Source: Flavihumibacter cheonanensis (GTDB lineage Bacteria; Bacteroidota; Bacteroidia; Chitinophagales; Chitinophagaceae). Taken from it: a DNA stretch of 64,000 nt. The notes beneath the pieces were generated by a model. The model saw only the letters and a list, made by a program, of their open reading frames with translations, did not search any database and was not told the origin of the DNA. Position numbers and translations under genes: made by a program. Within the stretch, counting starts at the first letter, position 1. Every line of letters starts with the position of its first letter. This document shows, piece after piece, positions 31,287-63,121 of this stretch. The stretch is from the NCBI RefSeq assembly GCF_022352215.1, contig NZ_JAKRWF010000001.1, positions 496,001 through 560,000 on the forward strand, given 5' to 3'.

Positions 31287-31355
31287 TTAGAAGTAAGAAG
31301 TTAGAAGTGAGAAGTGAGAGAAAACTTTTTCACCTTTCACTTTTTCACCTTTCAC
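31287..31355 (+). repeat. Heptamer array after prc plus a duplicated 15-mer
   Basis: Four units of seven bases, GAAGTAA GAAGTTA GAAGTGA then GAAGTGA, run from 31290 to 31317, starting three bases after the prc stop. At 31325-31354 the 15-mer CTTTTTCACCTTTCA is repeated twice in tandem. The second part is partly complementary to the first, so the transcript could fold back. A 13-bp bidirectional terminator follows at once. Confidence 0.85.
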
Positions 31356-31385
31356 AAAAAAAGCCGGCATTAGCCGGCTTTTTTT
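31356..31385. terminator. Bidirectional intrinsic terminator between prc and DinB
   Basis: A-run, GCCGGC, loop ATTA, GCCGGC and T-run form a 13-bp perfect stem (AAAAAAAGCCGGC / GCCGGCTTTTTTT). It can terminate transcription from both sides; the last two bases overlap the DinB stop. Confidence 0.92.
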
Positions 31386-31884
31386 ATAAATATCTTTCCT
31401 GTAAAATCGTAAGGTGGTGTTTTACATGTCCGGCCATAATGAAACCAATCGCAACCGCTGTTATCGGGTTGTTGGATGCATTCCCTTCGGCATTTAGTTG
31501 TTCATCCGTGAAGGATTTGATCATTCTCAGGTTGCTTTTTCTGAGCTGGCGCATCTCCTTAAGCATGTCTTCCCAGCTTCTCGAAGATACTATTGCATTG
31601 TTTGCATAGAGGTTTTCGTCAAAACCAGGAAGAGGAGTAGTATCCAGGCGGGCAATGCGTAATGCCCGGTAAGCAAAAATGCGTTCCGCATCAATAAGGT
31701 GTTGTACTACCTGTTTAATAGTCCATTTTCCTTCGGCATACGCATAATCCAGCTTTTCTTCCGGGATGGTTTCCAGGAATTCGAGCATCTCTTCGGTATT
31801 CTCTTTTAAGGTTTTCCGAAGATTATCGGACTTCACCAATTGTACATAGTTCTCAAAATATGGAGCGTAAATCAGGTTGTACAT
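31384..31884 (-). CDS. DinB-family protein (bacillithiol-transferase-like)
   Basis: A protein of 166 residues of the DinB_2/YfiT type. Candidate metal histidines are in KQVVQHLIDAERIFAYRAL (about 62) and in AGHVKHHLTILQERYL (about 153-157), giving the typical three-His site. Family members transfer thiols such as bacillithiol to electrophiles or act in detoxification; bshC in the window supports a bacillithiol background. It is a single gene, convergent with prc. A hairpin without a U-run lies just upstream of its start. Substrate unknown. Confidence 0.88.
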   Translation of the reverse strand: MYNLIYAPYFENYVQLVKSDNLRKTLKENTEEMLEFLETIPEEKLDYAYAEGKWTIKQVVQHLIDAERIFAYRALRIARLDTTPLPGFDENLYANNAIVSSRSWEDMLKEMRQLRKSNLRMIKSFTDEQLNAEGNASNNPITAVAIGFIMAGHVKHHLTILQERYL

Positions 31885-31907
31885 GTCAGTTGATTTGGTA
31901 TGATTTT

Positions 31908-31936
31908 ACCCGACCGGCAAATACCTCCGGTCGGGT
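31908..31936. terminator. Perfect 10-bp hairpin between the subtilase and DinB genes
   Basis: ACCCGACCGG and CCGGTCGGGT flank a nine-base loop, directly after the 3' end of the subtilase gene (stop at 31945). No U-run follows on either strand, so it may be a weak terminator or an mRNA 3'-end stabiliser. Confidence 0.5.
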
Positions 31937-31944
31937 GAAAAGGG

Positions 31945-33654
31945 TTATCCTTTTTTATCTTTTTTCAGGGTTGATTTTGGAGCTGGTTTGCCTTTTTTCT
32001 GGTTTTCAAGTGTGGCGGCAAGTTTGGCAGCTTCAAATGCATTCAACAAACCTCCGGTTTTACTTATTTCCGCCAATTCTACTTCCTCGTCAGAACCTGG
32101 AATTTTTACTACCATATCCGGACCAACAGCAGATTTTTCAATAGCTTCCTTGATCTGTTGAGGAGTCAGCGTAGGATAATAACTCATCAGGAAAGCAGCT
32201 ACACCTGCAACAACAGGGGAAGCCATACTGGTGCCCTGGGCATTTCCATAGGTATTCCCACCCGGGATGGTAGAATAAATCTTGGTGCCAGGTGCAAAAA
32301 CATCCACTTCTGATTTTCCATAGTTGGAGAAAGAAGCAGTCAGGCTCTTAAAGCCGGGCTCTGCCAGCGGGTCAGAGCTTGCACCCACAGTAATCCAGTT
32401 GGTAGCTCTGTATTTGTTTTTCAGGAAAACTGGATTTGGAAAATTGTCAACGGAATCAATATTTGATGCATCATTTCCTGCTGCATGCACCAACAATACA
32501 CCTTTAGATTCTGCATATTTAACGGCATCATCCACCCAGTTTTTCTCTGGTGAAAAGCTTTTGCCAAAGCTCATATTGATCACTTTTGCTCCATTGTCTA
32601 CCGCATAGCGGATGGCCAGTGCGATATCTTTATCATGCTCATCGCCATCAGGTACAGCACGAATCGCCATGATGCGAACATTGTCAGCCACACCATCTAT
32701 TCCAACGCCATTTTTACGTTTTGCAGCAATGATACCAGCCACGTGTGTGCCATGGAAAGGCGTATTTGCCATCACATCGTTGTTTCCATAAAAACGGTCG
32801 TTGATGTCGTTGTAATTGTCACCAACGATTGCTCCGCGGTAGTCTTCCGGTGCTTTTTCAGCTGCTTCTTTTTTTCTTTCTTCTCCGCTTACAAAATCAG
32901 CAAAGCCTTCCAGGAACTCACCATTACCGGTTTCCATCATATTGAAGGCTTTCAGAATATAGAGCATACCAGCTTTCGCTTTCTGCGCTTCTGGAGTAGA
33001 GGGGGCAAATTTTTCAAGTTCTTTTCCGGTATAGGAAGATGTGTCCATGGCAACACGCAGCAAACTATCGTTTTTCTGGCTGCTCTCAAGGGCACGCTTC
33101 AGGAAAATCAGATCCGCACCACCACCGCCAGCATCGCCTTCTACTTTATCCTTGGCTTTTTTCCACATTTCATAGGTGGCTTTCTCGTCTGCAGGCAGGT
33201 TTTCGGGATTGAAATCCGCCGCTCCGTATTTTGCTTTGTACTTGTGATATACACGGGCACCTTCATAGCTGTCCTGCTTCACATTCCGGCCATCTTTGCC
33301 TCCGATAAAATTCCATCCATAGATATCATCTATATATCCATTCTTATCATCATCAATTCCATTCCCGGGAATCTCTTTCGGATTTCTCCAGAGAACAGGC
33401 TTCAGATCTTCATGCAGTGTGTCAATGCCACTGTCAATTACAGCAACCACAACTGTTTTACTGGGACGGTTCTTCACAAATTCATAGGCCTGATCCAGGC
33501 TGATACCATAAAATCCATCTTTGGCACGGTCAGCCAGGTGCCAACCTTTGGGAAGTTCTTTGTTCACGGTTGCAGTCGTTCCCTGTGCAGAGGCGTTTCC
33601 GAGGCTAATTATCGCCAGGGCTGCGGTGGCTGGCAAGATTCGTAGAAAATTCAT
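31945..33654 (-). CDS. Exported subtilisin-like serine protease (peptidase S8)
   Basis: A protease of 569 residues from the ATG at 33654 (MNFLRILPATAALAIISLGNASAQ, a signal peptide); an open frame extends 27 bases upstream. The catalytic triad is visible: Asp in VVAVIDSGIDTLHEDL, His in FHGTHVAGIIAAKR, and Ser in AQGTSMASPVVAGVAAF, with the oxyanion Asn in HAAGNDASN. Between Asp and His is an insertion of about 150 residues rich in Lys, Glu and Ala. No C-terminal T9SS domain is visible; the end is lysine-rich (KGKPAPKSTLKKDKKG). Periplasmic or secreted general protease. Confidence 0.92.
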   Translation of the reverse strand: MNFLRILPATAALAIISLGNASAQGTTATVNKELPKGWHLADRAKDGFYGISLDQAYEFVKNRPSKTVVVAVIDSGIDTLHEDLKPVLWRNPKEIPGNGIDDDKNGYIDDIYGWNFIGGKDGRNVKQDSYEGARVYHKYKAKYGAADFNPENLPADEKATYEMWKKAKDKVEGDAGGGGADLIFLKRALESSQKNDSLLRVAMDTSSYTGKELEKFAPSTPEAQKAKAGMLYILKAFNMMETGNGEFLEGFADFVSGEERKKEAAEKAPEDYRGAIVGDNYNDINDRFYGNNDVMANTPFHGTHVAGIIAAKRKNGVGIDGVADNVRIMAIRAVPDGDEHDKDIALAIRYAVDNGAKVINMSFGKSFSPEKNWVDDAVKYAESKGVLLVHAAGNDASNIDSVDNFPNPVFLKNKYRATNWITVGASSDPLAEPGFKSLTASFSNYGKSEVDVFAPGTKIYSTIPGGNTYGNAQGTSMASPVVAGVAAFLMSYYPTLTPQQIKEAIEKSAVGPDMVVKIPGSDEEVELAEISKTGGLLNAFEAAKLAATLENQKKGKPAPKSTLKKDKKG

Positions 33655-33749
33655 GCAGAGCTTATTTTGTTTCTGATACAAAATGACGCAAAAAGACGGT
33701 ATTTAGTTTGCCGCTTGCGTAAATTTTGCATCCTGTTAAATGGATATTG

Positions 33750-35273
33750 TTAAAGATCAAATTTAATACCTTGAGCCAGAGGCAGTTTTGTGGTATAATT
33801 AATAGTGTTGGTCTGTCTGCGCATATATGCTTTCCAGGCATCGGAACCACTTTCACGTCCACCGCCTGTTTCTTTTTCTCCACCGAATGCTCCCCCGATT
33901 TCAGCCCCACTGGTACCGATATTCACATTGGCGATGCCACAATCACTTCCCGCAGCACTCAGGAATTGTTCCGCTTCCCGGAGGTTGAGTGTCATTATTG
34001 CTGAGGATAAGCCCTGAGGAACCCCATTTTGAAGGGCGATTGCTTCATCAATGGTTTTGTATTTCAGCAGGTATAAAATGGGGGCAAAGGTTTCGTGCTG
34101 CACGATCTGGTAATGATTTTCAGCCTCAGCAATACAGGGCTTTACATAACAACCACTTTCATAACCTTCTCCTTCCAGTACACCTCCTTCTACTACAAAG
34201 TTGCCACCCTCTTTTTTACAGGTCTCGATGGAGTTGAGGTATTGTTGTACGGCATCTTTATCAATCAGCGGACCAACATGATTTTGCTGGTCGAGCGGAT
34301 TTCCAATCCGTAATTGTTTATAAGCATTTACCAGTTTGTTCTTGAAAGTATCATACACCGATTCATGAATAATCAATCTGCGGGTAGTAGTGCAACGTTG
34401 TCCGGCTGTACCTACAGCTCCGAACACAGCACCAATAAGAGACATATCCAGGTCTGCGTCCTGAGTGATGATGATCGCGTTATTGCCTCCCAGCTCCAGA
34501 ATACTTTTACCCAATCTGGCACCAACTGCTGCTCCGACGGCTTTACCCATACGGGTGGATCCGGTGGCAGATATCAGCGGGATGCGGGTATCATGGCTCA
34601 GCCATTCACCCAAATCACGACCGCCATTTACGATGCAGCTAACACCTTCGGGTACATTGTTCTTTTTGAAAACTTCATTGATGATGTTTTGACAGGCGAT
34701 GGAGCAAAGCGGGGTTTTTTCAGATGCTTTCCAAATGCAGACATCACCGCACACCCAAGCCAGTGCTGCGTTCCAACTCCAGACTGCTACCGGGAAATTA
34801 AAAGCGGAAATAATTCCAACAATACCCAAGGGGTGCCATTGTTCATACATACGGTGACCGGGTCTTTCACTGTGCATGGTCAGGCCATACAATTGACGTG
34901 ATAAACCTACTGCAAAATCGCAGATATCGATCATTTCCTGCACTTCACCATATCCTTCCTGCAGGCTTTTTCCCATTTCATAAGATACCAGTTTGCCCAG
35001 GTTTTCTTTTTGCGCCCGAAGTGCTTCACCCACTTGCCGAACAATTTCTCCTCTGCGGGGAGCCGGCCACTGTCTCCATTCCAGAAAAGCAGCACCCGCC
35101 TGCTTAAGAATGGCCTCATAGGCAGCTTTGTCGGTGCTTTGTACAGAACCTATCAATTTACCGTCAACGGGTGAATAAGACGAGATGGATGGGCCGGTTG
35201 ATTCAAGCCAGTTTGTTCCGGTAGAGCTGCCAATATTTTGAGCATCTACCCCAAGTGCGCGTAAAAATTCCAT
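33750..35273 (-). CDS. ALDH7-family aldehyde dehydrogenase (aminoadipate-semialdehyde type)
   Basis: A protein of 507 residues. Catalytic features are present: ILELGGNNAIIITQDADLDM (general-base Glu region), GTAGQRCTTTRRLIIHESV (catalytic Cys), and ATGSTRMGKAVG (NAD binding). The C-terminal pattern NIGTSGAEIGGAFGGEKETGGGRESGSD with LPLAQGIKF is typical of the antiquitin/ALDH7A1 and AmaB group, which oxidises alpha-aminoadipic semialdehyde in lysine catabolism. A strong -7 box is 19 bases upstream of the ATG. It is a single gene; no lysine-degradation partner is in the window. Confidence 0.9.
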   Translation of the reverse strand: MEFLRALGVDAQNIGSSTGTNWLESTGPSISSYSPVDGKLIGSVQSTDKAAYEAILKQAGAAFLEWRQWPAPRRGEIVRQVGEALRAQKENLGKLVSYEMGKSLQEGYGEVQEMIDICDFAVGLSRQLYGLTMHSERPGHRMYEQWHPLGIVGIISAFNFPVAVWSWNAALAWVCGDVCIWKASEKTPLCSIACQNIINEVFKKNNVPEGVSCIVNGGRDLGEWLSHDTRIPLISATGSTRMGKAVGAAVGARLGKSILELGGNNAIIITQDADLDMSLIGAVFGAVGTAGQRCTTTRRLIIHESVYDTFKNKLVNAYKQLRIGNPLDQQNHVGPLIDKDAVQQYLNSIETCKKEGGNFVVEGGVLEGEGYESGCYVKPCIAEAENHYQIVQHETFAPILYLLKYKTIDEAIALQNGVPQGLSSAIMTLNLREAEQFLSAAGSDCGIANVNIGTSGAEIGGAFGGEKETGGGRESGSDAWKAYMRRQTNTINYTTKLPLAQGIKFDL

Positions 35274-35292
35274 TGCAAGCTGTTTTAGCCGG

Positions 35293-35300
35293 CAAAGGTA
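35293..35300 (-). promoter_or_regulatory. -7 promoter box TACCTTTG for the aldehyde dehydrogenase gene
   Basis: Minus-strand TACCTTTG matches TAnnTTTG, 19 bases before the ATG at 35273. No clear -33 TTG. Confidence 0.6.
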
Positions 35301-35328
35301 CAGTTTTCCCGATCAGTATGAGGTGACC

Positions 35329-36144
35329 TCAGTATTGTTCCTGTTCATTGGGGAAATCACCGCTGCGTACATCCTTCACGTAATTACCAACTGCTCCCAG
35401 GATCTGATCGTGCAGGTTCAGGTATTTCCGAAGGAAGCGGGGGTTAAAATCATTGTTGATGCCCAGCATGTCATGCATTACGAGTACCTGTCCATCACAG
35501 TGGTTGCCTGCTCCGATACCGATAGTGGGTATGGTAAGTGATTCGGACACTTCTTTCGCCAGAGTGGCTGGAATTTTTTCCAATACAATAGCAAAACATC
35601 CGGCTTCCTGCAATAGCAATGCGTCCTTTTTCAGTTTTTCAGCTTCGGCTTCTTCTTTTGCTCTTACTGTATAAGTTCCAAATTTGTATATGGATTGCGG
35701 TGTAAGTCCAAGATGCCCCATTACAGGTATGCCTGCATGAACAATCCTCCGGATACTCTCTGCCACTTCCTCACCTCCCTCCAGTTTAATGGAATGGCCG
35801 CCGGTTTCTTTCATGATTCGAATGGCACTTGCCAGTGCTATATCAGAATTTGACTGGTAAGATCCGAATGGGAGATCTACCACTACGAGTGATCGGTTTA
35901 CCCCTCGTACCACACATTGTGCGTGATAGATCATATGCTCCAGTGTAATGGGAACGGTTGTATCATGGCCAGCCATTACGTTACTGGCAGAATCACCTAC
36001 CAGCAACACATCTACCCCTGCTTCATCAAAAATCCGGGCGAAAGAATAATCATAAGCCGTAAGCATGGCTATCTTTTCTCCTGCAGATTTCATTTTCAGC
36101 AGGGTATTGGTCGTAACCTTTTTAACTTCTTTATGAACCGACAT
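35329..36144 (-). CDS. panB: 3-methyl-2-oxobutanoate hydroxymethyltransferase
   Basis: A protein of 271 residues. It makes ketopantoate from alpha-ketoisovalerate and 5,10-methylene-tetrahydrofolate, the first step of pantothenate and CoA synthesis. Family motifs are clear: [50 protein letters not shown] (metal/substrate Asp), VKLEGG-like [18 protein letters not shown] and [21 protein letters not shown]. Length is normal. A 7-base repeat array fills part of the gap upstream, at the end of the ppx gene. No panC or panD is adjacent. Confidence 0.96.
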
Positions 36145-36183
36145 GAAATACTGGTATTATAAATTGAATATTGATCGTTCCTC

Positions 36184-36225
36184 TCACTTCTGACGTCTGA
36201 CGTCTCACGTTTCACGTTTCACTTC
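36184..36225 (-). repeat. Heptamer array at the 3' end of ppx
   Basis: Six units in exact phase. On the minus strand in order: GAAGTGA, AACGTGA, AACGTGA, GACGTCA, GACGTCA, GAAGTGA. The ppx stop codon TGA (36205-36207) is the end of one unit, and the last ppx residues (VKRET) are encoded by the array. Confidence 0.88.
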
Positions 36226-37092
36226 CTCATAGAGGATATGCACCAACCCATCTGCTAAACCAATTTTAGGAACAAAAATTTCCTTTGCATCGGCCCATCT
36301 CATCACATTGATGTAAATACTAAGGGCGGGAACAATAACATCCGCACGGTCTTCCCGCAGATTGTAGAGCCGCATCCGTTGTGATACGGTGAAACTGCTG
36401 AGTTCGCGGTGATAATCTTTTAGAAGTTCCAGTGGAAGTGATTTGCCATCTTTCTTCTTGGACATAGAGAATATTTTGTTGATATTCCCACCGGATCCTA
36501 TACAGGTAACAGATTTTGCTCCTTTAGTGAATTGGCGGATCGTTTCCTTCATGTCTTCCCAATGCGCTTCTGTTACCTGATCTTTCAGGATACGGATCGT
36601 TCCTATGTTGAAGGATTTTTTGTACGCCAGTTTACCTTCGTTGAAAAAGGTTAATTCTGTACTACCGCCACCTACGTCAATATAAAGATAGGACTGCTCC
36701 TTATCCATATTCTCAGCAATATGATTTTCGTATATGAAGGAGGCTTCCTGATCGCCGGAAATGATTTCAATCTGGATACCGGTTTCTTTTTTTATATGAT
36801 CAATGATCGCCGGACCATTACTTGCATCCCGCATCGCAGAGGTAGCGCAAGCTTTATAATGTTGCACACCGTAAACATCTATCAATGCCCGGTAGGCACG
36901 GATGGTTTTGATAATATGCTCTTCTTTTTGCGGAGAGATTGTCTGATTTTCAAAAACATCAAACCCTAACCTGAGCGGAACCCTGACCAGGTTTAACTTG
37001 TTAAAACGTTCATTGCCCTGGTCGTCTGTGATTACCTCTGTTATCAGTAAACGTGCGGCATTACTTCCAATATCGATAGCGGCTAATTTCAA
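36205..37092 (-). CDS. ppx: Exopolyphosphatase / Ppx-GppA phosphatase
   Basis: A protein of 295 residues of the actin-like ASKHA fold: AAIDIGSNAARLLI (phosphate 1), CATSAMRDASNG, ISGDQEASFIYEN, LYIDVGGGSTELTFFN (phosphate 2, catalytic Glu/Asp region), and GSGGNINKIF. It is shorter than E. coli Ppx and lacks the C-terminal HD-like domain, as is usual for Bacteroidota. The start is 22 bases after the ppk stop, so ppk and ppx form one unit that makes and degrades polyphosphate. Its last residues and stop codon lie in a 7-base repeat array, so the tail VKRET is probably not ancestral. GppA activity cannot be excluded. Confidence 0.93.
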   Translation of the reverse strand: MKLAAIDIGSNAARLLITEVITDDQGNERFNKLNLVRVPLRLGFDVFENQTISPQKEEHIIKTIRAYRALIDVYGVQHYKACATSAMRDASNGPAIIDHIKKETGIQIEIISGDQEASFIYENHIAENMDKEQSYLYIDVGGGSTELTFFNEGKLAYKKSFNIGTIRILKDQVTEAHWEDMKETIRQFTKGAKSVTCIGSGGNINKIFSMSKKKDGKSLPLELLKDYHRELSSFTVSQRMRLYNLREDRADVIVPALSIYINVMRWADAKEIFVPKIGLADGLVHILYEEVKRET

Positions 37093-37114
37093 GGCTGCTG
37101 ATTTTCAGAAATAC

Positions 37115-39253: not shown

Positions 39254-39329
39254 AATCAGCCATTTATATCCAAAATTCAGGATCTGGCAGATGTACCCAA
39301 ATTAAGGAATTGTTAGCGAACCAACCGTT

Positions 39330-39403
39330 GGCTAAACTGGTTATCTAAAGGTAACCTAATAGAAACCTCATGGAAACCTCATGGTTACCTCATCCAAACC
39401 TGG
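39330..39403 (+). repeat. Tandem repeat with an 11-base period upstream of the rpmB promoter
   Basis: Six full units and one partial unit in phase: GGCTAAACTGG, TTATCTAAAGG, TAACCTAATAG, AAACCTCATGG, AAACCTCATGG, TTACCTCATCC, AAACCTGG. Two central units are identical. The period is close to one DNA helical turn. The tract ends 25 bases upstream of the -33 element of the rpmB promoter and also lies upstream of the divergent ppk gene. Confidence 0.85.
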
Positions 39404-39427
39404 CTTTTTATTTTTTTAGTTTTAGTT

Positions 39428-39458: not shown

Positions 39459-39479
39459 CCGTCCTAAATTTTGACAGTC

Positions 39480-50752: not shown

Positions 50753-52372
50753 ATGACCCATACAACCAGTCAGTCTTCTGTTAGTAGTCTGCCGTATGCA
50801 GCCACCGGATTTTATAACGATATCGTACTGGATTATGTAAGTGGAGATGAAAAACTTCGTCCATTTTATCAGCATCCTGTTAGCTGGGAGGGTGTGGATG
50901 CAGCAATGAAAGCACGTGCCCTGGCTCCTGTGAACCGGAAGGTACTGGTGGAAGCATTGGAACAGCAATACAAATCGGCCGGACTAAATGGTGATGCAGC
51001 AGTTGATTCGGCAATCCAATTATTGGCACAGCCCACTACCTATACAATTTGTGCGGCGCATCAGCCCAATATTTTTACGGGATATTTATATTTCATATAT
51101 AAAATTCTGCATGCGATCAGGCTTGCTGAAAGTTTGAGGGATCGTTATCCAACGTCCTCTTTTGTACCGGTTTTTTATATGGGCAGTGAGGATGCAGACC
51201 TGGATGAACTGGGAAAAATCAATCTGGGCGGGGAGAAGCTTGTTTGGAATACAAATCAGAAGGGAGCTGTTGGACGTATGCAAACAAAAGGGCTTGAACC
51301 TTTACTTCAACGAATAGAGGGGCAACTTTCTGTTCTTCCTTATGGTCCGCAATTAATGGAACTGCTACGAACAGCTTATCTTGGTTCAAAGGATATACAA
51401 ACCGCCACCTTCCACCTGGTGCATGAATTATTCAGGCAATATGGATTGGTGGTGCTGATCGCTGATCAACCGGATTTAAAAAGAATCATGCAGCCGGTAT
51501 TTGAAGATGATCTCTTTAATCAAACGGCATCTGCCATAGTAACGGATACGGTTAGTCGCTTAACAACTTCCTATAAAGTACAGGCCAATCCTCGTTCCAT
51601 TAATTTATTTTATTTGAAAGATGATATCCGAAACCGGATTGAAAGAACGGAGAATGGGTTTGCGGTAGTAGATACCGGAATTGAGTTTACAGTGGCGGAA
51701 ATGAAAAACGAGTTGGAGCAATTTCCTGAACGGTTCAGTCCGAATGTAATCCTTCGTGGTTTGTACCAGGAAACGATTCTACCCAATATCGCTTTTATAG
51801 GGGGTGGGGGAGAATTGGCTTATTGGCTTGAATTGAAAGAGTTGTTTCAGCATTACAAAGTTCCCTATCCTGTTCAGGTGTTGCGTAATTCATTTTTACT
51901 GGTACCGGAAAACCTGGCGGCCAAAATTGATCGCATGGGCTTTACCCTTCCTGATTTTTTTCAGCCAACGGATGAATTGATGAATCAACTGGTGAAACGT
52001 GATAGTTCTGTACAGGTGCATTTAAGTTCAGAGTTGCGTGATTCGCAAGCCTTTTATCAGCATCTTCAAAACCTTGCCGGAAAAATAGATACCACGTTGG
52101 TGCCCCATGTGCAGGCATTGGAAAAACAAATGCTGCATCGGTTAAAGGAACTGGAGAAAAAAATGCTTCGTGCTGAAAAAAGAAAATTCAGTGATCAGTC
52201 GCGCCAGTTACAAGCTATTCGAAACATCCTTTTTCCCAATAATGCATTACAGGAAAGAGTAGAGAATTTTCTGCCTTACTATGCGCAGCATGGGCCGGCA
52301 TTTATTGATAAAATCTATTCTGAAAGCCCGCCATTGGAACAGGCATTTAGAATTGTGAAGTATGAATTGTGA
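50753..52372 (+). CDS. bshC: Bacillithiol biosynthesis cysteine-adding enzyme BshC
   Basis: A protein of 539 residues from the ATG at 50753 (MTHTTSQSSVSSLPYAATGF); a longer open frame upstream is not needed. It adds cysteine to glucosamine-malate as the last step of bacillithiol synthesis. Family patterns: AAHQPNIFTGYLYFIYKI, PVFYMGSEDADLDELG, IAFIGGGGELAYWLELKELF, and a long coiled coil near 440-485 (ALEKQMLHRLKELEKKMLRAEK). The stop codon and the last residues (IVKYEL) lie in a 7-base repeat array, so the tail is probably not ancestral. bshA and bshB are not in the window. Confidence 0.94.
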   Translation: MTHTTSQSSVSSLPYAATGFYNDIVLDYVSGDEKLRPFYQHPVSWEGVDAAMKARALAPVNRKVLVEALEQQYKSAGLNGDAAVDSAIQLLAQPTTYTICAAHQPNIFTGYLYFIYKILHAIRLAESLRDRYPTSSFVPVFYMGSEDADLDELGKINLGGEKLVWNTNQKGAVGRMQTKGLEPLLQRIEGQLSVLPYGPQLMELLRTAYLGSKDIQTATFHLVHELFRQYGLVVLIADQPDLKRIMQPVFEDDLFNQTASAIVTDTVSRLTTSYKVQANPRSINLFYLKDDIRNRIERTENGFAVVDTGIEFTVAEMKNELEQFPERFSPNVILRGLYQETILPNIAFIGGGGELAYWLELKELFQHYKVPYPVQVLRNSFLLVPENLAAKIDRMGFTLPDFFQPTDELMNQLVKRDSSVQVHLSSELRDSQAFYQHLQNLAGKIDTTLVPHVQALEKQMLHRLKELEKKMLRAEKRKFSDQSRQLQAIRNILFPNNALQERVENFLPYYAQHGPAFIDKIYSESPPLEQAFRIVKYEL

Positions 52373-52456
52373 AGTATGAATTAGAACCTAACACGTAATC
52401 CTGATTCTCAATTCATACTTCATAATTCTCACTTCTTACTTCATAAATCATACTTG
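52350..52456. repeat. Opposed heptamer arrays between bshC and purE, forming a hairpin
   Basis: Plus strand, 52350-52384: GAATTGT GAAGTAT, then GAATTGT GAAGTAT, then GAATTAG. From 52401 to 52456 eight units run on the minus strand (GAAGTAA, GAAGTGA, GAATTAT, GAAGTAT and others). Each contains the stop of the gene it follows: bshC at 52370-52372 and purE at 52441-52443. The arms at 52364-52382 and 52410-52428 are complementary over 19 bp with one G-U pair. Confidence 0.9.
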
Positions 52457-52968
52457 TTGGGGTTTCCGTTTTGCTTTAGTTTTTCCACTTTTGCCAATAC
52501 TTCTGATTCGAGTTGTTGCTTGTAGGCAGTTACTTTATCACCAATAGAGCTGTCAAAGGCACCGATCATGGTAGCGGCGAGAATACCTGCGTTTTTAGCT
52601 GCATTAAGGGCGACCGTTGCTACCGGTATACCATTTGGCATTTGAAGTATAGATAAAACGGAATCCCATCCATCGATGGAATTAGATGATTTGATCGGAA
52701 CACCTATTACCGGAAGGGAGGTGATGGAAGCTACCATTCCAGGAAGATGCGCTGCGCCACCTGCTCCTGCTATAATAATCTTCAGTCCTCTTTCTCTTGC
52801 GGTTTGCGCATAACTAACCATTCTGAGCGGGGTCCTGTGAGCAGAAACCACGGTCAGTTCATAGGCAATTCCAAATTCAGTTAAAATATCTGCTGCAGCC
52901 TGCATAATGGGAAGATCAGAATCGGATCCCATAATGATGCCTACCTGTGGATTGGTGGAAGTTGACAT
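52441..52968 (-). CDS. purE: N5-carboxyaminoimidazole ribonucleotide mutase
   Basis: A protein of 175 residues that converts N5-CAIR to CAIR in purine synthesis (class I PurE). Family motifs: GIIMGSDSDLPIMQAA, VVSAHRTPLRMV and IAGAGGAAHLPGMVAS, which form the active-site loops. Length is normal. The stop codon and the last residues (NKYDL) lie in a 7-base repeat array. Its partner purK is 5.7 kb upstream on the same strand, separated by an RND efflux operon. It starts 41 bases after the TolC-family gene and may be read from the efflux operon. Confidence 0.96.
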   Translation of the reverse strand: MSTSTNPQVGIIMGSDSDLPIMQAAADILTEFGIAYELTVVSAHRTPLRMVSYAQTARERGLKIIIAGAGGAAHLPGMVASITSLPVIGVPIKSSNSIDGWDSVLSILQMPNGIPVATVALNAAKNAGILAATMIGAFDSSIGDKVTAYKQQLESEVLAKVEKLKQNGNPNKYDL

Positions 52969-57300: not shown

Positions 57301-57435
57301 AACAACAGGAGGATCAATTGCCGGGTAATCCCGAACCCCCAGAAATTTGTAACCGATCAATCCGAAAACGATGATCACCACATTCATCACGATGGCCAGA
57401 ACCGGCCTCCGCAAACTCAGTTCGGATATATTCAT
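54343..57435 (-). CDS. RND efflux transporter, HAE1/AcrB-like
   Basis: A protein of 1030 residues, normal for an AcrB-like pump. Twelve membrane segments in two sets of six, separated by two large periplasmic loops. The proton-relay aspartates are seen in LATGLVVDDGIVVTENIFKKME (TM4). N-terminal LSLRRPVLAIVMNVVIIVFGL is typical. It exports hydrophobic or amphiphilic compounds using the proton gradient, drawing substrates from the periplasm with the MFP adaptor and TolC-like channel. Middle gene of the efflux operon, six bases after the MFP gene. Confidence 0.96.
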   Translation of the reverse strand: MNISELSLRRPVLAIVMNVVIIVFGLIGYKFLGVRDYPAIDPPVVNVRTSYPGANADIIESQITEPLEKAVNGIAGVKNITSSSSQGTSNITVEFDLSIDLEAAANDVRDKVSQAVRSLPDDLDAPPVVSKADASSDVIISMTVQSNTRNQLQVTEYATNNLLERLQTIPGVSGIQIWGEKRYAMRIWFDPAKLSAYGLTPGDVQTALRTQNIELPSGKISGNATELSVRTFGLLNTEEEFNNIIVKNVGGSDIKLKDIGEAVLGPENEETVLKESTIPMIALALVPQPGSNYVAISDEFYKRYEQIKKDVPEDISLDIALDQTKFIKRSILEVEETLIIAFVLVVLIIYFFFRDWIIAIRPLIDIPVSLIGAFFIMYLFGFTINVLTLLAIVLATGLVVDDGIVVTENIFKKMEKGMDKWQAAKEGSKEIYFAVIATSITLAVVFLPIVFLEGFVGRLFREFGIVVAGAVLISAFVSLTLTPVLNVKLTRKSQKPSWFYRKTEPFFVGMENLYRRTLTGFMRVRWIAFLIIGICFAAIYFIGTNMQSELAPMEDRSQFRLSITAPEGTSFDYMDSYIDRIGRFMLDSVPEKRVMITVTAPGFSGTGSVNTGFLRMTLVDPDERVRSQQQIVDMVNRNLGRFNEGRAFAIQEQTIQVNRRGGLPVQFVIQNVNFEKIREVLPKFLEEANRSPVFQGVDADLKFNKPELRLNIDRLKASQLGISVEDISSTLQLALSNRRLGYFTKDGKQYQVIGQLARNDRDEPTDLKTVYVRSSTGQVVSLDNIVSFEEETTPPTIYHFNRYKSATVSAGLAPGKTIGDGIKEMERIADGLLDESFSTALSGSSRDFQESSSNTSFAFLLALGLIFLILAAQFESFIDPFIIMFTVPLAIAGALIALWIFDQTLNIFSQIGMIMLIGLVTKNGILIVEFANHKRMEGMAKAPAVIDAAVSRLRPILMTSLAMALGALPLALSLGAASTSRIPLGIVITGGIMFSLILTLYVIPAMYSYLSSKKKMHSELDEVVTVPVSA

Positions 57436-57441
57436 GGCTGC

Positions 57442-58512
57442 TTAATTAAGTTTGGATATGGCAATTTTGGCTTCCGGTTTAATGGAAAGCAGGCCGGTTG
57501 TTACTATGGTATCTCCCACTTTCAATCCGTCAATAATCTGGACATAACTGCTATCTCTTACACCGGTTGTAACGGTTTCAAATACGGCAGTACCATCCCT
57601 GTAAACAATCACTTTTTTGAATCTCGCCTGGGGTATTACAGCCTGGGTTGGGATCATCAGCGCATTGTTATCTTTTCCGAAATCAAGTTGCACTTTAGCG
57701 AAAGCACCTGGTATCAGTTGGGGAGCTTTACCCTGCACTACAGCACGGATGCGCAGGCTTCTGCTTTCTTCCATGACTGCTTCTTCAGTTGCCAGTACTT
57801 TTGCCGGTATCGTTTTGTCCAGTCCTTCAACACTGAATCTTACCATTGAGCCTGCTTTGATGCGGCTGCTGTATTTTTCCGGCACAGTGAACTCCAGTTT
57901 CAATTCATTTTCCTGTCGGATATTCGTAATCAGCGTAGCTGGTGTTACATAGGCACCAAGGCTCACATTACGTAATCCAAGGCGACCGGAGAAGGGGGCT
58001 CGAATTTCAGTTTTTTCAATAGAGGTTCGGATTAATTCCATATCCGCTTTGATATTGTTTACCTGCAGTACACTCAAATCATATTCCTGCTTGCTGATAC
58101 CATCTATTTTTAGGAGTTCAGCCTGGCGACTGGCTGTTTGTTCGTAAATATTTAACTGCACCTGCAGTTTTTTTAATTGTGCCTGGAGATCATCATCATA
58201 CAATTTAACCAGCAAAGTTCCTTTACCAACCTGTTGACCTTCCCGGATATTCAATTGAGTTACCCTTCCGGAAACTTCCGGCCTTAATTCAGTTGCTTCA
58301 TAGGGCATCAGAGTACCCGGTACTTCCAGTTTTTCACTTACGGATCCGGGTTTGAGAATAAATGCCTCCACTTTTATCACTTGCGATGGCCGTGCTGATG
58401 TTCCTGCAGCTGGAGGAGCAATTTTTTTCTTGTCATCTGATTTACAGGAATTCAATCCTGCAATAAGGCCGGAGAGCAGTAAAAAAGTGAACACACTGGA
58501 TATTGATCGCAT
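57442..58512 (-). CDS. RND efflux membrane-fusion (adaptor) lipoprotein
   Basis: A protein of 356 residues. A lipoprotein signal with the lipidated Cys in GLNSCKSDDKK anchors it to the inner membrane. Adaptor parts: barrel-sandwich (VSEKLEVPGTLMPYEATELRPEVSGRV, and IRAPFSGRLGLRNVSLGAYV, a lipoyl-like half), a coiled-coil hairpin (LYDDDLQAQLKKLQVQLNIYEQTASRQAELLKIDG), and a C-terminal beta barrel. It joins the RND pump and the outer-membrane channel. First gene of the MFP-RND-OEP operon; the 164-base gap to purK upstream should contain its promoter. Confidence 0.95.
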   Translation of the reverse strand: MRSISSVFTFLLLSGLIAGLNSCKSDDKKKIAPPAAGTSARPSQVIKVEAFILKPGSVSEKLEVPGTLMPYEATELRPEVSGRVTQLNIREGQQVGKGTLLVKLYDDDLQAQLKKLQVQLNIYEQTASRQAELLKIDGISKQEYDLSVLQVNNIKADMELIRTSIEKTEIRAPFSGRLGLRNVSLGAYVTPATLITNIRQENELKLEFTVPEKYSSRIKAGSMVRFSVEGLDKTIPAKVLATEEAVMEESRSLRIRAVVQGKAPQLIPGAFAKVQLDFGKDNNALMIPTQAVIPQARFKKVIVYRDGTAVFETVTTGVRDSSYVQIIDGLKVGDTIVTTGLLSIKPEAKIAISKLN

Positions 58513-58676
58513 GAAGTTTCCCTGATTTAATGTGGGTCAATGGTAAAATTAACAGATAAATCCTGCCTAATGTTGGCTGGCTTTTCAGAAGTCGTCAAAT
58601 CACTACAGATTCCTACTTTCTTGGTATGAACGGTAATTAATCAGGATGATTGGAAAAAACAAATTAGAAATGACGA

Positions 58677-59798
58677 TTAACTCTTCACCTTTAAAATGCG
58701 TTTGATCTGGTGGGCTTTTCTTACGAGGTCATGCCTGTCCTTTCCAAGCACCGTAACATGCCCCATTTTTCTACCGGGCTTCGTTTGTTTTTTACCATAC
58801 AGGTGAACATATACGTCTTCCATATTCAATACTTCCTCCAAACCTTCATAGTTTACGTCTCCTGAATAACCGGGTTCACCAATCAGATTGACCAGGGAAG
58901 AGGGCAGGAGGGCAGTGGTAGACCCAAGTGGAAAATCCAACAGGATCCGCCATAACATATCATACTGGGAGGAGGAATGGGCTTCAATAGTATGATGACC
59001 GCTGTTATGCACCCTTGGTGCGGCTTCATTTACCAGTACTTCTCCGTCTTTGTCTATGAAGAGTTCAATTGCAAACAAACCCGGAGATTCAAGTGCTTTC
59101 ACCAGTTTCAGTGCAATAGCCTCCACTCTCCAGAGCGTTTTGTCTTCCAAATCTGCCGGAGCAATCTGGTAATCCAGCAAATTCAGATTGGGGTCAAATA
59201 CCATTTCAACAGGAGGGTAGATGGCCTGCTCTCCCTTATTATTAATAGCTACCAACACTGCAATTTCTTTTTCAATGGCTACTTTCTTTTCAAGTACACT
59301 GGGCGCATCAAAGGCCAGCTCAAATTCTTCAAATGAATGAAGCAATTGGACACCTTTTCCATCATAACCACCCTCGCCCAGTTTTTGAGCAGCCGGTAAA
59401 AATTCCAAATGGGATTTGAGTGCTTCCTTATTGGGCACCGTTACAAATGCAGCCGTTGGGATTCCATTGGCCTGGTAAAATTCTTTCTGTATTATTTTAT
59501 TCTTGATGGTTCTCAACGCAGACGGCTTCGGAATCACTTTTACACCCTCTTTTTCCAACTGTTCCAGTGCATCGACGTTTACGGATTCAATTTCGATGGT
59601 AATTGCATCCAGTTGTTTGCCAAATTGGTATACATCATCAAAGGAGCGAATATTTCCGGTTACAAAATGATGGCAGAGATGTGCTGCGGGGCAAGTGGGA
59701 TCGTTTTCCATTACCCAGGTTTCGACAGGGTAATTGGCCGCTTCCTGTAACAACATTCTACCTAATTGTCCGCCTCCAAGTATTCCAACTTTTTTCAT
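58677..59798 (-). CDS. purK: N5-carboxyaminoimidazole ribonucleotide synthase
   Basis: An ATP-grasp enzyme of 373 residues that makes N5-CAIR from AIR, bicarbonate and ATP. Family motifs: VGILGGGQLGRMLLQEAANYPV, KLGEGGYDGKGVQ (ATP-binding loop), FIDKDGEVLVNEAAPRVHNSGHHTIEA and KPGRKMGHVTVLG. Length is normal. Its partner purE lies 5.7 kb downstream, with the RND efflux operon between. It is divergent from the hppD leader region. No repeat array follows its stop. Confidence 0.97.
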   Translation of the reverse strand: MKKVGILGGGQLGRMLLQEAANYPVETWVMENDPTCPAAHLCHHFVTGNIRSFDDVYQFGKQLDAITIEIESVNVDALEQLEKEGVKVIPKPSALRTIKNKIIQKEFYQANGIPTAAFVTVPNKEALKSHLEFLPAAQKLGEGGYDGKGVQLLHSFEEFELAFDAPSVLEKKVAIEKEIAVLVAINNKGEQAIYPPVEMVFDPNLNLLDYQIAPADLEDKTLWRVEAIALKLVKALESPGLFAIELFIDKDGEVLVNEAAPRVHNSGHHTIEAHSSSQYDMLWRILLDFPLGSTTALLPSSLVNLIGEPGYSGDVNYEGLEEVLNMEDVYVHLYGKKQTKPGRKMGHVTVLGKDRHDLVRKAHQIKRILKVKS

Positions 59799-59841
59799 GG
59801 CGCAAAAATAATGATTCCGCTGCCTGCAGGTTCAGGATTCT

Positions 59842-59849
59842 TATATTTG
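59842..59849 (+). promoter_or_regulatory. -7 promoter box TATATTTG upstream of the hppD leader
   Basis: A perfect TAnnTTTG box. Transcription from it would start at about 59855, just at the start of the 32-codon frame at 59854 and 155 bases before hppD, giving a long leader. Confidence 0.55.
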
Positions 59850-59853
59850 TACC

Positions 59854-59952
59854 ATGACTCCGGATTATCCACATAAACTCTTTTCGGATCACAGACAGCA
59901 GTACTGTCTGCTGATGGAGTCATTGGCGATGGATTCAACTTCACTGGTTTAA
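59854..59952 (+). CDS. Possible 32-codon leader reading frame upstream of hppD
   Basis: ATG at 59854 to TAA at 59952: MTPDYPHKLFSDHRQQYCLL, then MESLAMDSTSLV. The start is five bases after a good -7 box, so the frame would be at the very start of the hppD mRNA. An imperfect palindrome (CAGACAG, CAGTA, CTGTCTG) lies inside it and a GC-rich hairpin follows it. This may be a leader peptide or a chance frame; there is no homology I can recognise. Confidence 0.3.
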   Translation: MTPDYPHKLFSDHRQQYCLLMESLAMDSTSLV

Positions 59953-59962
59953 GTTTTCAACA

Positions 59963-59980
59963 GGTCCGGGTTTCCGGGCC
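59963..59980 (+). promoter_or_regulatory. GC-rich hairpin in the hppD leader
   Basis: GGTCCGG and CCGGGCC form a 7-bp stem (one G-T pair) with a four-base loop, ten bases after the leader frame stop and 31 before hppD. No U-run follows, so it is not a classical terminator; it could be an mRNA regulatory structure. Confidence 0.35.
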
Positions 59981-60011
59981 CCATTCTTCATTTCTTATAC
60001 TTACCCGCAAA

Positions 60012-61139
60012 ATGAACCAGGTATTAGCCAAACTTCAGCAGCATGCTGCAACTGATTTTCTTCCCTTGCAGGGAACGGATTATGTTGAATTTTATGTAGG
60101 GAATGCCAAACAGGCCGCCCATTTTTACAAGACCGCCTTTGGGTTCCAGAGCCTGGCCTATGCAGGACCGGAAACCGGCGTAAAGGACCGCGCGAGTTAT
60201 GCCGTTCGGCAACATAAACTGACTTTCGTATTTACTACCCCATTGAGACCCGATAATCCTATTGCGGATCATATTTATCGCCACGGAGATGGTGTTAAAA
60301 TGCTGGCGCTTCGGGTTGATGATGCCACAAAAGCCTGGAATGATACGACTTTGCGGGGAGCAGACTCCTATATGGAACCACAGCTTTTTACAGATGAATA
60401 CGGCGAACTGATAATGAGTGGTATTAAAACCTATGGTGATACGGTTCATCTTTTTATTGAACGCACCAATTATGCAGGACCTTTTCTTCCTGGTTACCGG
60501 GACTGGAAATCGGAATACAATCCCACAGAAACGGGGTTGTTGTATGTTGACCACTGCGTTGGAAATGTGGGTTGGAACCAGATGGAGAAATGGGTTGGAT
60601 TTTATGAAAATGTAATGGGCTTCCGGAATATTCTGAGTTTTGATGACAAGGATATTTCAACAGAATATTCCGCCTTGATGAGCAAGGTGATGTCTAACGG
60701 AAACGGATATGTGAAATTCCCCATAAATGAACCTGCAGAGGGTAAGAAAAAAAGCCAGGTGGAAGAATTCCTGGATTATTACAATGGGGAAGGATGCCAG
60801 CATGTGGCCCTGGCTACCAATAATATTATTGAAACGGTTTCGGCATTGCGGCAAAGAGGGGTGGAGTTTTTGAAGGTACCCCTGTCTTATTACGATGAAT
60901 TGCTGGATCGGGTGGGACAAATAGATGAAGACCTGGCACCTTTACGTGAGTTGGGTATCCTGGTTGATCGGGATGAGGAAGGTTATTTATTGCAGATATT
61001 TACCAAGCCAGTGGAAGATAGACCTACCCTGTTTTTTGAGATCATTCAGCGAAAAGGGGCAAAAAGTTTTGGTAAGGGAAATTTCAAGGCTTTGTTCGAA
61101 GCCATTGAACGTGAGCAGGAAAAAAGAGGGAATTTATAA
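60012..61139 (+). CDS. hppD: 4-hydroxyphenylpyruvate dioxygenase
   Basis: A protein of 375 residues of the vicinal-oxygen-chelate fold; it converts 4-hydroxyphenylpyruvate to homogentisate in tyrosine degradation. Iron ligands are visible: His in YVDHCVGNVG, His in GCQHVALATNNI, and Glu in TLFFEIIQRKG. Two VOC half-domains run from about 15-160 and 175-355. It has a leader region of about 160 bases with a promoter box, a short frame and a hairpin, and a strong terminator after the stop. Other tyrosine-pathway genes are not in the window. Confidence 0.95.
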   Translation: MNQVLAKLQQHAATDFLPLQGTDYVEFYVGNAKQAAHFYKTAFGFQSLAYAGPETGVKDRASYAVRQHKLTFVFTTPLRPDNPIADHIYRHGDGVKMLALRVDDATKAWNDTTLRGADSYMEPQLFTDEYGELIMSGIKTYGDTVHLFIERTNYAGPFLPGYRDWKSEYNPTETGLLYVDHCVGNVGWNQMEKWVGFYENVMGFRNILSFDDKDISTEYSALMSKVMSNGNGYVKFPINEPAEGKKKSQVEEFLDYYNGEGCQHVALATNNIIETVSALRQRGVEFLKVPLSYYDELLDRVGQIDEDLAPLRELGILVDRDEEGYLLQIFTKPVEDRPTLFFEIIQRKGAKSFGKGNFKALFEAIEREQEKRGNL

Positions 61140-61144
61140 TAAAC

Positions 61145-61178
61145 ATCCCCGGAAGAGCGTTTCCGGGGATTATTTTAT
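61145..61178 (+). terminator. Intrinsic terminator of hppD
   Basis: A perfect 10-bp stem ATCCCCGGAA / TTCCGGGGAT with a six-base loop is followed by TATTTTAT, five bases after the hppD stop. Confidence 0.8.
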
Positions 61179-61227
61179 GGCTTTCTTATCAATTGTTTGT
61201 ATTATTTTAGTGCAGTTCTGATCAACT

Positions 61228-62427
61228 ATGAAAAAAATCAGCATCACCCTATTGATCCTTAGCTGGGTACTTGCTGGATTCTCCCAAACTGCCTACAATG
61301 CCAGTTTTGCAGATTACCAGCGAAATTTTCCCCGCCTCCATGATATCCTTCGCAAAAAAGAAGACAGTCTTCGCCGGCAGTTTATGGAAAAGGGACTATC
61401 CTGGCCAGCTAAATATATCTACCTGCGTTCCTTCAAATATGACAGCCAGCTCGAAGTATGGGTAAAAAACGATAAAAAAGAACCTTTCCAGCTATTTAAA
61501 ACCTACAAGGTTTGTGCAATGGCAGGTACGCTCGGTCCCAAGCGTATGGAGGGTGATTACCAGGTGCCTGAAGGATTTTATTATATCAATGAATTTAATC
61601 CCCGCAGTGTTTACCATTTATCTCTTGGTTTAAACTATCCCAACGCGTCGGATCGTTACCTGAGTGATGCCATTCAGCCTGGTGGAGACATCTATATTCA
61701 TGGCAGTTGTGTTACTACAGGGTGTATCCCGATTACTGATTCCCAAATCGAAGAGTTGTATGCGCTGGCTACTTATGCCAAATCATCCGGGCAAGACTTC
61801 ATACCGGTTCATATATTCCCCGTACGCTTCAATGTAAAAAAGAGTGCAGATTACCTGGGCAGATATGTGCGTGACTTCGCAGATTATGCTCATCTCGCCA
61901 ACAGTTTGAAGGAAGTGTTTTATTATTTCGAAAAACACAAGCAATTGCCATTGATCATGGTTAATAACCGTGGCAGTTATGTGTTGGATGAAGACGTAAA
62001 GAATGCGCTGCCATCTGCAGAAAAAAAGGTGCTGCCCGCACCGGTGGTAAAAAAGAAACGCAGGCATACCGAATTTGATGAGTCAGAAATTCCCACCACT
62101 GTTCATAAATTACCAGAGTTTCCCGGTGGTTCGGATGCCTTCCGTCAATACCTAAGGGATCTGAATAAAAAATTAGGTCCCTATCTTAACGACGATCAGC
62201 ACACCGCTTATGTGTTGGTTGAATTCATCGTAACTGGAAAGGGCAAGGTTTTAAACCCCCGAATCATTCGCGGCGGCAATGATTTGCTCAATGAACACCT
62301 GTTGGATGCACTTGAAGAAATGCCCGACTGGTTACCTGCGGTCCGCGAAGGAAAATCGGTTCCAATGAAACTTAAGCAGACCATCGTAATTGAAAATAAG
62401 CTGCCGGGGGTACAGGTAGGAAGCTAA
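61228..62427 (+). CDS. L,D-transpeptidase (YkuD) fused to a TonB C-terminal domain
   Basis: A protein of 399 residues with a signal peptide (MKKISITLLILSWVLAGFSQ). The YkuD catalytic motif is HGSCVTTGCIPI near residue 160, with the nucleophilic Cys and the His; such enzymes make 3-3 peptidoglycan crosslinks or attach proteins to it. A linker rich in lysine (about 265-285) leads to a TonB_C domain (about 295-395): LPEFPGGSDAFRQYLR, VLVEFIVTGKGKVLNPRII and AVREGKSVPMKLKQTIVI. The fusion is unusual. A 7-base repeat array starts three bases after the stop. Confidence 0.87.
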   Translation: MKKISITLLILSWVLAGFSQTAYNASFADYQRNFPRLHDILRKKEDSLRRQFMEKGLSWPAKYIYLRSFKYDSQLEVWVKNDKKEPFQLFKTYKVCAMAGTLGPKRMEGDYQVPEGFYYINEFNPRSVYHLSLGLNYPNASDRYLSDAIQPGGDIYIHGSCVTTGCIPITDSQIEELYALATYAKSSGQDFIPVHIFPVRFNVKKSADYLGRYVRDFADYAHLANSLKEVFYYFEKHKQLPLIMVNNRGSYVLDEDVKNALPSAEKKVLPAPVVKKKRRHTEFDESEIPTTVHKLPEFPGGSDAFRQYLRDLNKKLGPYLNDDQHTAYVLVEFIVTGKGKVLNPRIIRGGNDLLNEHLLDALEEMPDWLPAVREGKSVPMKLKQTIVIENKLPGVQVGS

Positions 62428-62429
62428 TG

Positions 62430-62478
62430 GAAGTGTGAAGTATGAAGTGAGAACTTAGAAGTAAGAATTTAGAAGTTT
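62430..62478 (+). repeat. Heptamer array after the L,D-transpeptidase gene
   Basis: Seven units in exact phase: GAAGTGT GAAGTAT, GAAGTGA, GAACTTA, GAAGTAA, GAATTTA and GAAGTTT. It starts three bases after the stop codon at 62425-62427 and ends 34 bases before the next gene. Confidence 0.9.
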
Positions 62479-62512
62479 GATTGGGGATAATCTAATTTGA
62501 ATAGTCCATTTG

Positions 62513-63016
62513 ATGGCAAAAAGGGTGCGGCAGCTATTACCGGAATTGGTTTGGGTCATACTTTCTATCTTATTGACCTTTCTACTAACCAGGATCTTAT
62601 TCGGTGCTTTTCATTTAGCGGGTTCGATAGATATCCACTTGCATGATTCCTATTATATAATTCAGAGTTGGGTATTGCTGACCCCCATGATGTTATTCAC
62701 TACGTTTTTTTTATTTATCATCAAAACAAGCATCCGGATATTTTCATCCCTATAAAGCTATTGGGTACTCCTTGCTTCCGGAATTTTCCTGATGGGATCA
62801 ATAAGTTTCCTGATAAAAAAACTCTCACAGGTTGCATCAGCTTGCTGGTCCGTATATCCGCGGTTAGCTGAATCTGGACAGCAACATTTTCCAGTTCCGC
62901 AACCAGACCCAATATCCCATACCCTAACCATTTTTTTGCTACTGGTTCAGCTGCTGATTTTGATCACAACTGTATTCTTTGCATACCGACTTGGGACATC
63001 CGCTCAAAAACAATAA
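62513..63016 (+). pseudogene. Four-helix membrane protein gene with one in-frame stop
   Basis: Two frames in the same phase, 62513-62755 (80 residues) and 62756-63016 (86 codons), are separated only by a TAA at 62753-62755. The second half has no start codon before a membrane segment (SYWVLLASGIFLMGSISF) that is cut if translation begins at the ATG at 62792. Together they give a protein of about 166 residues with four hydrophobic segments and a SIDIHLHDSYYII motif, like the HDTYxVI motif of small membrane proteins common in Bacteroidota and of haem-copper oxidase subunit I. It is probably one gene broken by a recent nonsense mutation, unless the two halves are made separately. Confidence 0.65.
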
Positions 63017-63019
63017 AAG

Positions 63020-63121
63020 ATTGTCTCCCGTTTCCTTTGTCTCCCTTCTTCCTTTGCTCCATCTTCCATTCCTCCATTCTCACGTCTGACTTCTCACGTC
63101 TGACTTCTCACTTCTGAAAAG
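63020..63121 (-). repeat. Heptamer array and purine tract at the 3' end of the aspartokinase gene
   Basis: Five exact units at 63080-63114 (minus strand): GAAGTGA, GAAGTCA, GACGTGA, GAAGTCA and GACGTGA. The aspartokinase stop TGA (63080-63082) is the end of the last unit, and its final residues (RSEKSDVRSQT) are encoded by the array. Beyond the stop, 63020-63079 is a degenerate purine-rich tract on the same strand that seems to keep the period. Confidence 0.85.

Follow-up and report, generated by a model that had tools for sequence, protein, structure and literature searches.

A 64,000-nucleotide stretch of the Flavihumibacter cheonanensis genome (hereafter the window: C110:496001-560000, from a 241-contig, 4.84 Mb genome labelled G000) carries tracks of tandemly repeated seven-base units at the ends of several of its genes, and these tracks belong to a family dispersed throughout the host genome and found in a number of its relatives. 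A track consists of tandem heptamers; in the host genome it usually holds GTSARA four times, with a single free base between copies. Most tracks start at a stop codon or include one, and carry their purine strand on the coding side. At convergent genes, a track at either stop tends to be accompanied by one at the other, so that the region reads stop-R ... Y-stop, and among the congeners compared the period, place and strand of the tracks were often kept while the unit was replaced. Based on these features of the sequence, we tentatively propose that the tracks may constitute a family of cis-acting mRNA 3'-end elements.

An earlier note on this DNA, made from its letters alone, had reported five loci with period-7 arrays, and all five were recovered by Tandem Repeats Finder (TRF) and a unit scan of the window. 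For genome-scale counts we used the first 1.2 Mb of the window's own contig, with gene ends taken from a simple in-house open reading frame (ORF) caller, whose starts are rough and which may have missed small genes or called spurious ones. At a score of 40, TRF returned 76 period-7 rows in this sample versus 0 in a Markov shuffle, and at a lower score 88 versus 1; other periods were raised less, except multiples of 7 and period 15. A position weight matrix (PWM), fixed by hand after a first scan and thus shaped on the same data it scans, detected 92 arrays, compared to 5 in a copy shuffled by a local Markov procedure. A control using reversed sequence (94 versus 34 at score 18) was dropped because reversed arrays resemble the unit. 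Searching the whole genome for GAMGTNNGAMGTNNGAMGT with up to 2 mismatches yielded 609 overlapping matches, versus 120 for the reversed pattern. The earlier note had proposed a scan for 7-mer arrays against shuffled positions as its check, and by this comparison the family is genome-wide and far above chance.

Nearly all of the PWM arrays were intergenic (91, with 1 of the 92 inside a gene), and their positions relative to stop codons were strongly asymmetric. Taking the 5' end of the purine strand as the outer end of an array, 66 of the 91 had it at a gene 3' end, and 53 of these 66 overlapped the stop or sat within 10 bp of it with the purine strand as the coding strand, compared to only 4 antisense arrays abutting a stop. 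Arrays starting between 2 bp inside and 15 bp behind an intact stop were sense in 25 cases and antisense in 1 (11 and 1, respectively, when tandem genes alone were counted). The median distance to the stop, for arrays with their outer end at a 3' end, was -2.5 bp between convergent genes and 1 bp between tandem ones, and array density per kb of gap fell from 3.25 in convergent to 0.59 in tandem and 0.17 in divergent gaps (72 TRF arrays, 3 of them without a clear strand). The sense strand was likewise favored in other genomes: within 15 bp of stops, the ratio of sense to antisense arrays was 45:4 in G000, 5:1 in G004, 3:0 in G008, 7:1 in G012 and 5:0 in G014, as well as 12:0 in G034 and 1:0 in G041, which belong to two other genera. 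The first 40 bases of host 3' ends contained 64-70% purine where arrays were present versus 48-53% where they were absent; a general purine bias of 3' ends was rejected as a cause, there being little or no purine or G-over-C bias at ends lacking arrays. The link to strand and 3' end drawn by the earlier note thus held (53:4 in the vicinity of stops, 25:1 past intact ones), whereas the exclusivity that it gave to gene ends did not: its statement that none lie upstream of genes fails genome-wide, with 25 of the 91 outer ends at a gene 5' end, 7 of these 25 arrays being between divergent genes.

Among the 29 sense arrays that overlap a stop, 25 supply TGA, as the unit would give, while TGA is used by 266 of the 973 genes in the genome sample. 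This bias, and the sense-strand stops held by RANGTGA, GAAKTAT, RGATGAC, GGTRAAC, GGTGAAT and part of GCAGKRA, are what would be expected if TGA- or TAA-containing heptamers served as fail-safe stops in all three frames, shielding against read-through, a property to which the earlier note had drawn attention. As a general cause it does not hold, as units without a stop are found in like places (GAAGGGA, at the prc gene of G014; GACGTCA; GGATGTT; and, in Xanthomonas, GGGAATC, PMC4692102), and arrays behind an intact stop are still sense-oriented. We consider the fail-safe explanation most improbable.

Tracks were most often four units long, a peak that is shifted or flattened when the unit is started elsewhere. 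Strict runs of at least two units, read in the rotation NGTSARA (85 runs), numbered 16, 10, 46, 5, 3, 3 and 2 for two to eight units, respectively; in the rotation RANGTSA the corresponding numbers were 15, 20, 35, 4, 4, 2 and 2, compared to a mean of 2.4 two-unit runs, and none longer, in shuffles. The run-length rotation was picked after inspection of all seven, over which the four-unit counts were 35, 37, 46, 46, 18, 7 and 20, with rotations 4-6 peaking at three. Since the rotations that peak at three start inside GTSARA, what has a fixed size is a ~27-base track holding GTSARA four times. Alignment of the 46 four-unit modules showed that their only fixed Gs are the isolated ones in GTSA. 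When two runs lay adjacent on the same strand (11 pairs), the gap between them was 1-3 bases in 9 and 8-9 bases in 2, giving the four-unit modules a pitch of ~30-31 bases; neighboring runs in register would merge into longer ones and be invisible in this count. Runs in G041 comprised 17 of two units, 5 of three, 9 of four and 2 of five. The order of units was itself common to distant loci beyond what shuffling within arrays produced, for words of two, three and four units and not of five (three-unit words were common to 80 pairs versus 27.7 +- 5.9 with the order shuffled).

Some arrays faced one another. The 63 array clusters of the sample comprised 38 single arrays, 5 with two arrays on the same strand and 20 with arrays on both strands, and in 20 of the latter 20 the purine arm came first; the number of single clusters is an upper bound, as weak partners (such as 31328-31355 of the window) and partners more than 350 bp away (62430/63077) were counted as single. 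In 50 convergent gaps of 40-600 bp, a track was present at both stops in 11, at one in 9 and at none in 30 (Fisher p 4.6e-5). Arms within a locus also resembled each other more than they did arms from elsewhere: in G034 all 13 pairs were inverted (30.1 versus 14.5 permuted, 0 of 5000 permutations), in G000 19 of 24 adjacent pairs were inverted (p 0.021), and in G012 3 of 3 (p 0.16). Inside clusters the spacing between arms ranged from 0 to ~275 bp, and it reached ~600 bp at window positions 62478-63077. Because the arms stay close to stops at such widely varying spacing, it is to the stop, more than to the partner arm, that we take them to be bound.

This geometry bears on whether the tracks are a dispersed repeat of the kind represented by repetitive extragenic palindromes (REP) and bacterial interspersed mosaic elements (BIME), that is, one that a trans-acting enzyme copies and that gene ends tolerate, both arms having been inserted as a single hairpin. 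The invariable precedence of the purine arm, the co-occurrence of arms at convergent stops and the unit order common to separate loci would all be accounted for by such copying, as would families that are patchy and lineage-restricted, some with more than 100 matches; moreover, matches over cut-off to PF01797 (Y1_Tnp), the domain of the REP-associated tyrosine transposase (RAYT), were obtained in G014, G034 and G041, all of which have arrays. A single inserted hairpin is, however, at odds with arms near stops at very different spacings and with spacers that vary between species, and PF01797 gave no match over cut-off in G000, G004 and G008 (one sub-threshold match in G000, none in the other two), nor was there an RVT_1 match in G000, G004, G008, G034 or G041. 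RAYT and reverse transcriptase were rejected as makers of the arrays, for their presence does not follow that of the arrays. Overall, we regard an origin of this type as unlikely.

The enrichment of arrays between convergent genes could also be explained if they were bidirectional terminators, or Rho sites that block antisense transcription by facing the incoming antisense message with their C-rich strand. Strong hairpins were obtained at both two-armed window loci that were folded, and Rho was found in 8 of 8 genomes searched, including G006, which lacks arrays in the sample described below. Yet in the 50 convergent gaps arrays were independent of the intrinsic terminator of their own gene (p 1.0) and of its neighbor (p 0.66), and single arms and tandem contexts are common. 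Intrinsic terminators were present at 12 of 33 convergent ends with an array versus 28 of 71 without, and at 2 of 21 tandem ends with an array versus 50 of 289 without, showing no link in either context. The two-armed hairpins have by themselves no trailing T run, and arrays neither replace nor accompany terminators; with no association found, terminator replacement and antisense guarding were both rejected, and we hold this explanation to be very unlikely.

Comparison with relatives revealed that the units change while their sites are often kept. Three consecutive RANGTGA units were frequent in G000, G004, G005, G008 and G014 of 15 congeners, matched once in G013 and not at all in the other nine; they were also found in G034 and G041, and 65 of 395 genomes sampled across the phylum had a match, mostly in few copies. 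In a set of 16 genomes, GCAGKRA and GGTRAAC were confined to G012 and GAAKTAT to G000, G004 and G008, RGATGAC had 250 matches in G034, 5 in G018 and none in the remaining 14, and GGTGAAT occurred in six genomes, G000, G004 and G008 not among them. Unit families are thus lineage-restricted, though not always private. At the 3' end of prc, by comparison, a period-7 array was present in 6 of 6 congeners examined, built from four unit types: RANGTGA-type in G000, G004 and G008, a GAAGGGA arm facing an AAGGTGA-type one in G014, GCAGTGA/GCAGGAA in G012 and GGTGAAT in G011. Across a syntenic region of 80 kb, TRF arrays lay within 150 bp of a G000 array in 7 of 7 cases in G004, 8 of 8 in G008 and 7 of 8 in G014 (one G008 and one G014 array were matched by hand to window 62430-62478, a host array that fell below the threshold of that run). 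The two arms between the L,D-transpeptidase and aspartokinase genes were both kept while their spacer measured ~600, ~207 and ~255 bp in G000, G008 and G014, respectively. The bshC-purE gap, for its part, has arrays in G000, G004 and G008 and is short and array-free in G014, G002, G009, G001 and G013, the last codons and stop of bshC differing accordingly.

We suggest that the tracks act or arise on the ribosome-free message just behind the stop, because the stop and the sense strand are set by translation and transcription, and it is the stop, not a partner track or a terminator, that fixes where the tracks lie. What is kept would be the geometry, i.e., a purine-rich sense track with a 7-base pitch and about four units, which may be read by an RNA-binding factor or affect the stability of the 3' end, while the sequence itself would be renewed through slippage and copying between loci. 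The same location could, alternatively, generate such arrays by transcription-coupled mutation without any function: purine-rich, ribosome-free RNA on a pyrimidine template would form a stable RNA-DNA hybrid that disturbs replication and favors seven-base slippage and template switching at that place and in that strand sense; past the stop, the arrays would persist because they are harmless there. A process of this kind would account for the anchoring to stops, the sense strand, the convergent enrichment and the free choice of unit, and the resemblance between paired arms in G034 and G000 fits copying across an inverted pair. Slippage alone should, however, give falling lengths and not a peak at four with few fives; nor does it sit well with adjacent same-strand runs separated, in 9 of 11 pairs, by 1-3 bases, or with sites kept in G014, whose aligned blocks are 67-79% identical. 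We therefore regard mutation without function as possible though doubtful, and on sequence grounds a function appears preferable by a small margin, mainly because of the length peak and the retention of sites.

Several results weigh against a functional 3'-end element. Most gene ends have no track, and in congener G006 there was no period-7 TRF row in 200 kb; for both reasons the element would be dispensable. This absence and the lack of a link to intrinsic terminators argue for caution, and the existence of several unit families in one genome is awkward for a single factor that reads sequence. The peak at four units varies with the base chosen as the first of the unit (3 of 7 rotations peak at three) and was not evident in G034, where arrays were also no denser in convergent than in tandem gaps (1.17 versus 1.33 per kb). 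Up to 38 of the 63 host clusters are single-armed, 5 of the 24 adjacent host pairs are not inverted, and host tandem gaps overall show a mild bias, the outer end being at a 3' end in 26 arrays versus at a 5' end in 18. G041 had 1 stop-adjacent array only, was inverted in only 4 of 7 adjacent pairs and had arms that were not alike (p 0.51). Over the 80 kb of synteny, only 1 of 2 G012 arrays and 1 of 2 G011 arrays mapped to a G000 array. Finally, two single arms of the window gave no stable structure when folded as RNA (z 0.24 for the ppx array).

In the window itself, the six arrays tallied by the earlier note are all present, and the names it gave to the genes agree with Pfam: tail-specific protease (prc), Ppx/GppA, BshC, AIRC (PurE), YkuD (L,D-transpeptidase) and AA_kinase. 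The BshC encoded here shares 96% identity with that of Flavihumibacter fluminis. The array behind prc (31290..31317, +) consists of the four units GAAGTAA GAAGTTA GAAGTGA GAAGTGA and begins 3 bases past the prc stop (gene end 31286). A seventh array, which the tally had missed, lies opposite it on the other strand (31328..31355, -), making the prc locus two-armed; it is of TTTCACC type, points toward a convergent DinB-family gene (31384-31884, -) and was detected by TRF only, being below the PWM threshold. It is followed, up to about 31385, by a GC-rich hairpin and a T run, and the RNA fold of 31287-31385, a stretch that includes this terminator-like hairpin, had a z of -7.3. The ppx array (36184..36225, -) has six units with the stop of ppx (36205-37092, -) inside it, and is a single arm in a tandem gene context, no partner being seen. 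The bshC array (52350..52398, +) takes in the last codons and stop of bshC (52370-52372), and the purE array (52408..52456, -) those of purE (52441-52968, -); folded as RNA, the two pair into a long hairpin (z -7.05). The L,D-transpeptidase array (62430..62478, +), of seven units, begins 2 bases past the stop of its gene (61228-62427, +), and its partner arm ~600 bp away, the aspartokinase array (63077..63114, -), has five units and takes in the last codons and stop of its gene (63080 onward, -). Hence two of the six arrays begin 2-3 bases behind a stop (prc and L,D-transpeptidase) and four contain it (bshC, purE, ppx and aspartokinase). The chance of 1 in 64 attached to their common orientation was overstated, because bshC and purE converge, as do the L,D-transpeptidase and aspartokinase genes, each of the four having an arm at its stop; four of the six arrays are therefore not independent.

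Additional repeats and features were observed in the window and in relatives. The spacer between the L,D-transpeptidase and aspartokinase arms (62480-63020) gives the impression of a broken small coding region, and a second pyrimidine-rich repeat of period 15-16, similar to TTCCTTTGCTCCATC, adjoins the aspartokinase array at 63021-63077; across the 1.2 Mb sample, too, period 15 was in excess (23 TRF rows versus 4 shuffled). An eleven-base tandem repeat, AACCTCATGGA, is present in 4.5 copies at 39353-39401. In congener gaps (L150, L152 (G011), L176 (G013) and L128 (G003)) we noted short palindromes, ACCCGWCGGGT or ACCCGSCGGGT, some as tandem 14-mers, which possibly represent another dispersed palindrome family. 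Behind bshC of Paraflavisolibacter caeni (L108) there is a near-perfect hairpin whose arm, GAATGGC GAATGAA, has a seven-base step with a different unit. At the gathering threshold, Rfam matched nothing in the window but one tRNA gene (28860-28933, -).

Dispersed repeats behind genes are well known in enterobacteria, where REP/BIME form hairpins and often lie between convergent genes; these have a conserved palindrome, a foot motif and the RAYT transposase, with no heptamer rhythm, and the distribution of that transposase among our genomes, given above, does not match. Heterocystous cyanobacteria carry short tandemly repeated repetitive (STRR) heptanucleotides in many copies, for which we know of no tie to stop codons. 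Closer in host range are the TAACTGA direct repeats described in Beggiatoaceae, some cyanobacteria and five Bacteroidetes (MacGregor 2015, PMC4679880); that paper also mentions longer mixed heptamer arrays in Bacteroidetes and one Flexibacter array behind a stop, in reverse orientation. These too are dispersed intergenic heptamers, found in part in Bacteroidetes, but they have another unit and in their main host lie mostly just upstream of starts, unlike the tracks described here (PMC4679880).

The closest likeness is to the G-rich heptamers of Xanthomonas and Nostoc, GGGAATC and GGGGAYT (Rehm et al. 2015, PMC4692102), of which the Nostoc repeats prefer the non-coding strand. A search of the literature gave, among the matches listed, no stop-tied heptamer family in Bacteroidota, in agreement with the earlier note, but a very similar stop-proximal family had been published for Xanthomonas. 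Both families consist of dispersed, intergenic seven-base tandem units (1 of 92 arrays inside a gene here) that lie near the stop on the coding strand, form inverted pairs and are rare between divergent genes, and both prefer four units (here 46 of 85 runs as NGTSARA and 35 of 82 as RANGTSA, a preference not evident in G034). The Xanthomonas repeats lie on average 28 nt from the stop and mostly between aligned ORFs, with 24 of 183 not assignable to a transcript, whereas the units described here are closer to the stop and densest between convergent genes; furthermore, most Xanthomonas sites are common to two species and differ in length and sequence, while the units here differ in kind between congeners (PMC4692102). 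The Xanthomonas unit contains GGG tracts and forms quadruplexes in vitro, which its authors linked to the four-unit preference, quadruplex formation being the idea pursued there, with no function established (PMC4692102). RANGTSA and GAAKTAT have no G tract, and because of this they should be unable to form quadruplexes. We thus file the present arrays as having a Xanthomonas-like geometry without G tracts, a variant of a known but unexplained kind. It is conceivable, if rather unlikely, that stop-anchored heptamer tracks make up a general class of bacterial 3'-end elements represented in two phyla or more. Their signal would be geometric (a sense strand rich in purines, a pitch of 7 bases, four units, and breaks of 1-3 bases between modules), with letters that each lineage may rewrite, and would be read by a putative factor; the quadruplex explanation would in that event cover one special case. 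Should conservation be able to extend to place, pitch and strand but not to sequence, such an element would escape searches by sequence and libraries of RNA families, and gene-end signals of a whole class may have stayed unlisted. The puzzle posed by the Xanthomonas heptamers, which come in fours near stops, becomes testable in this way, since a similar rule is found here in units without G tracts.

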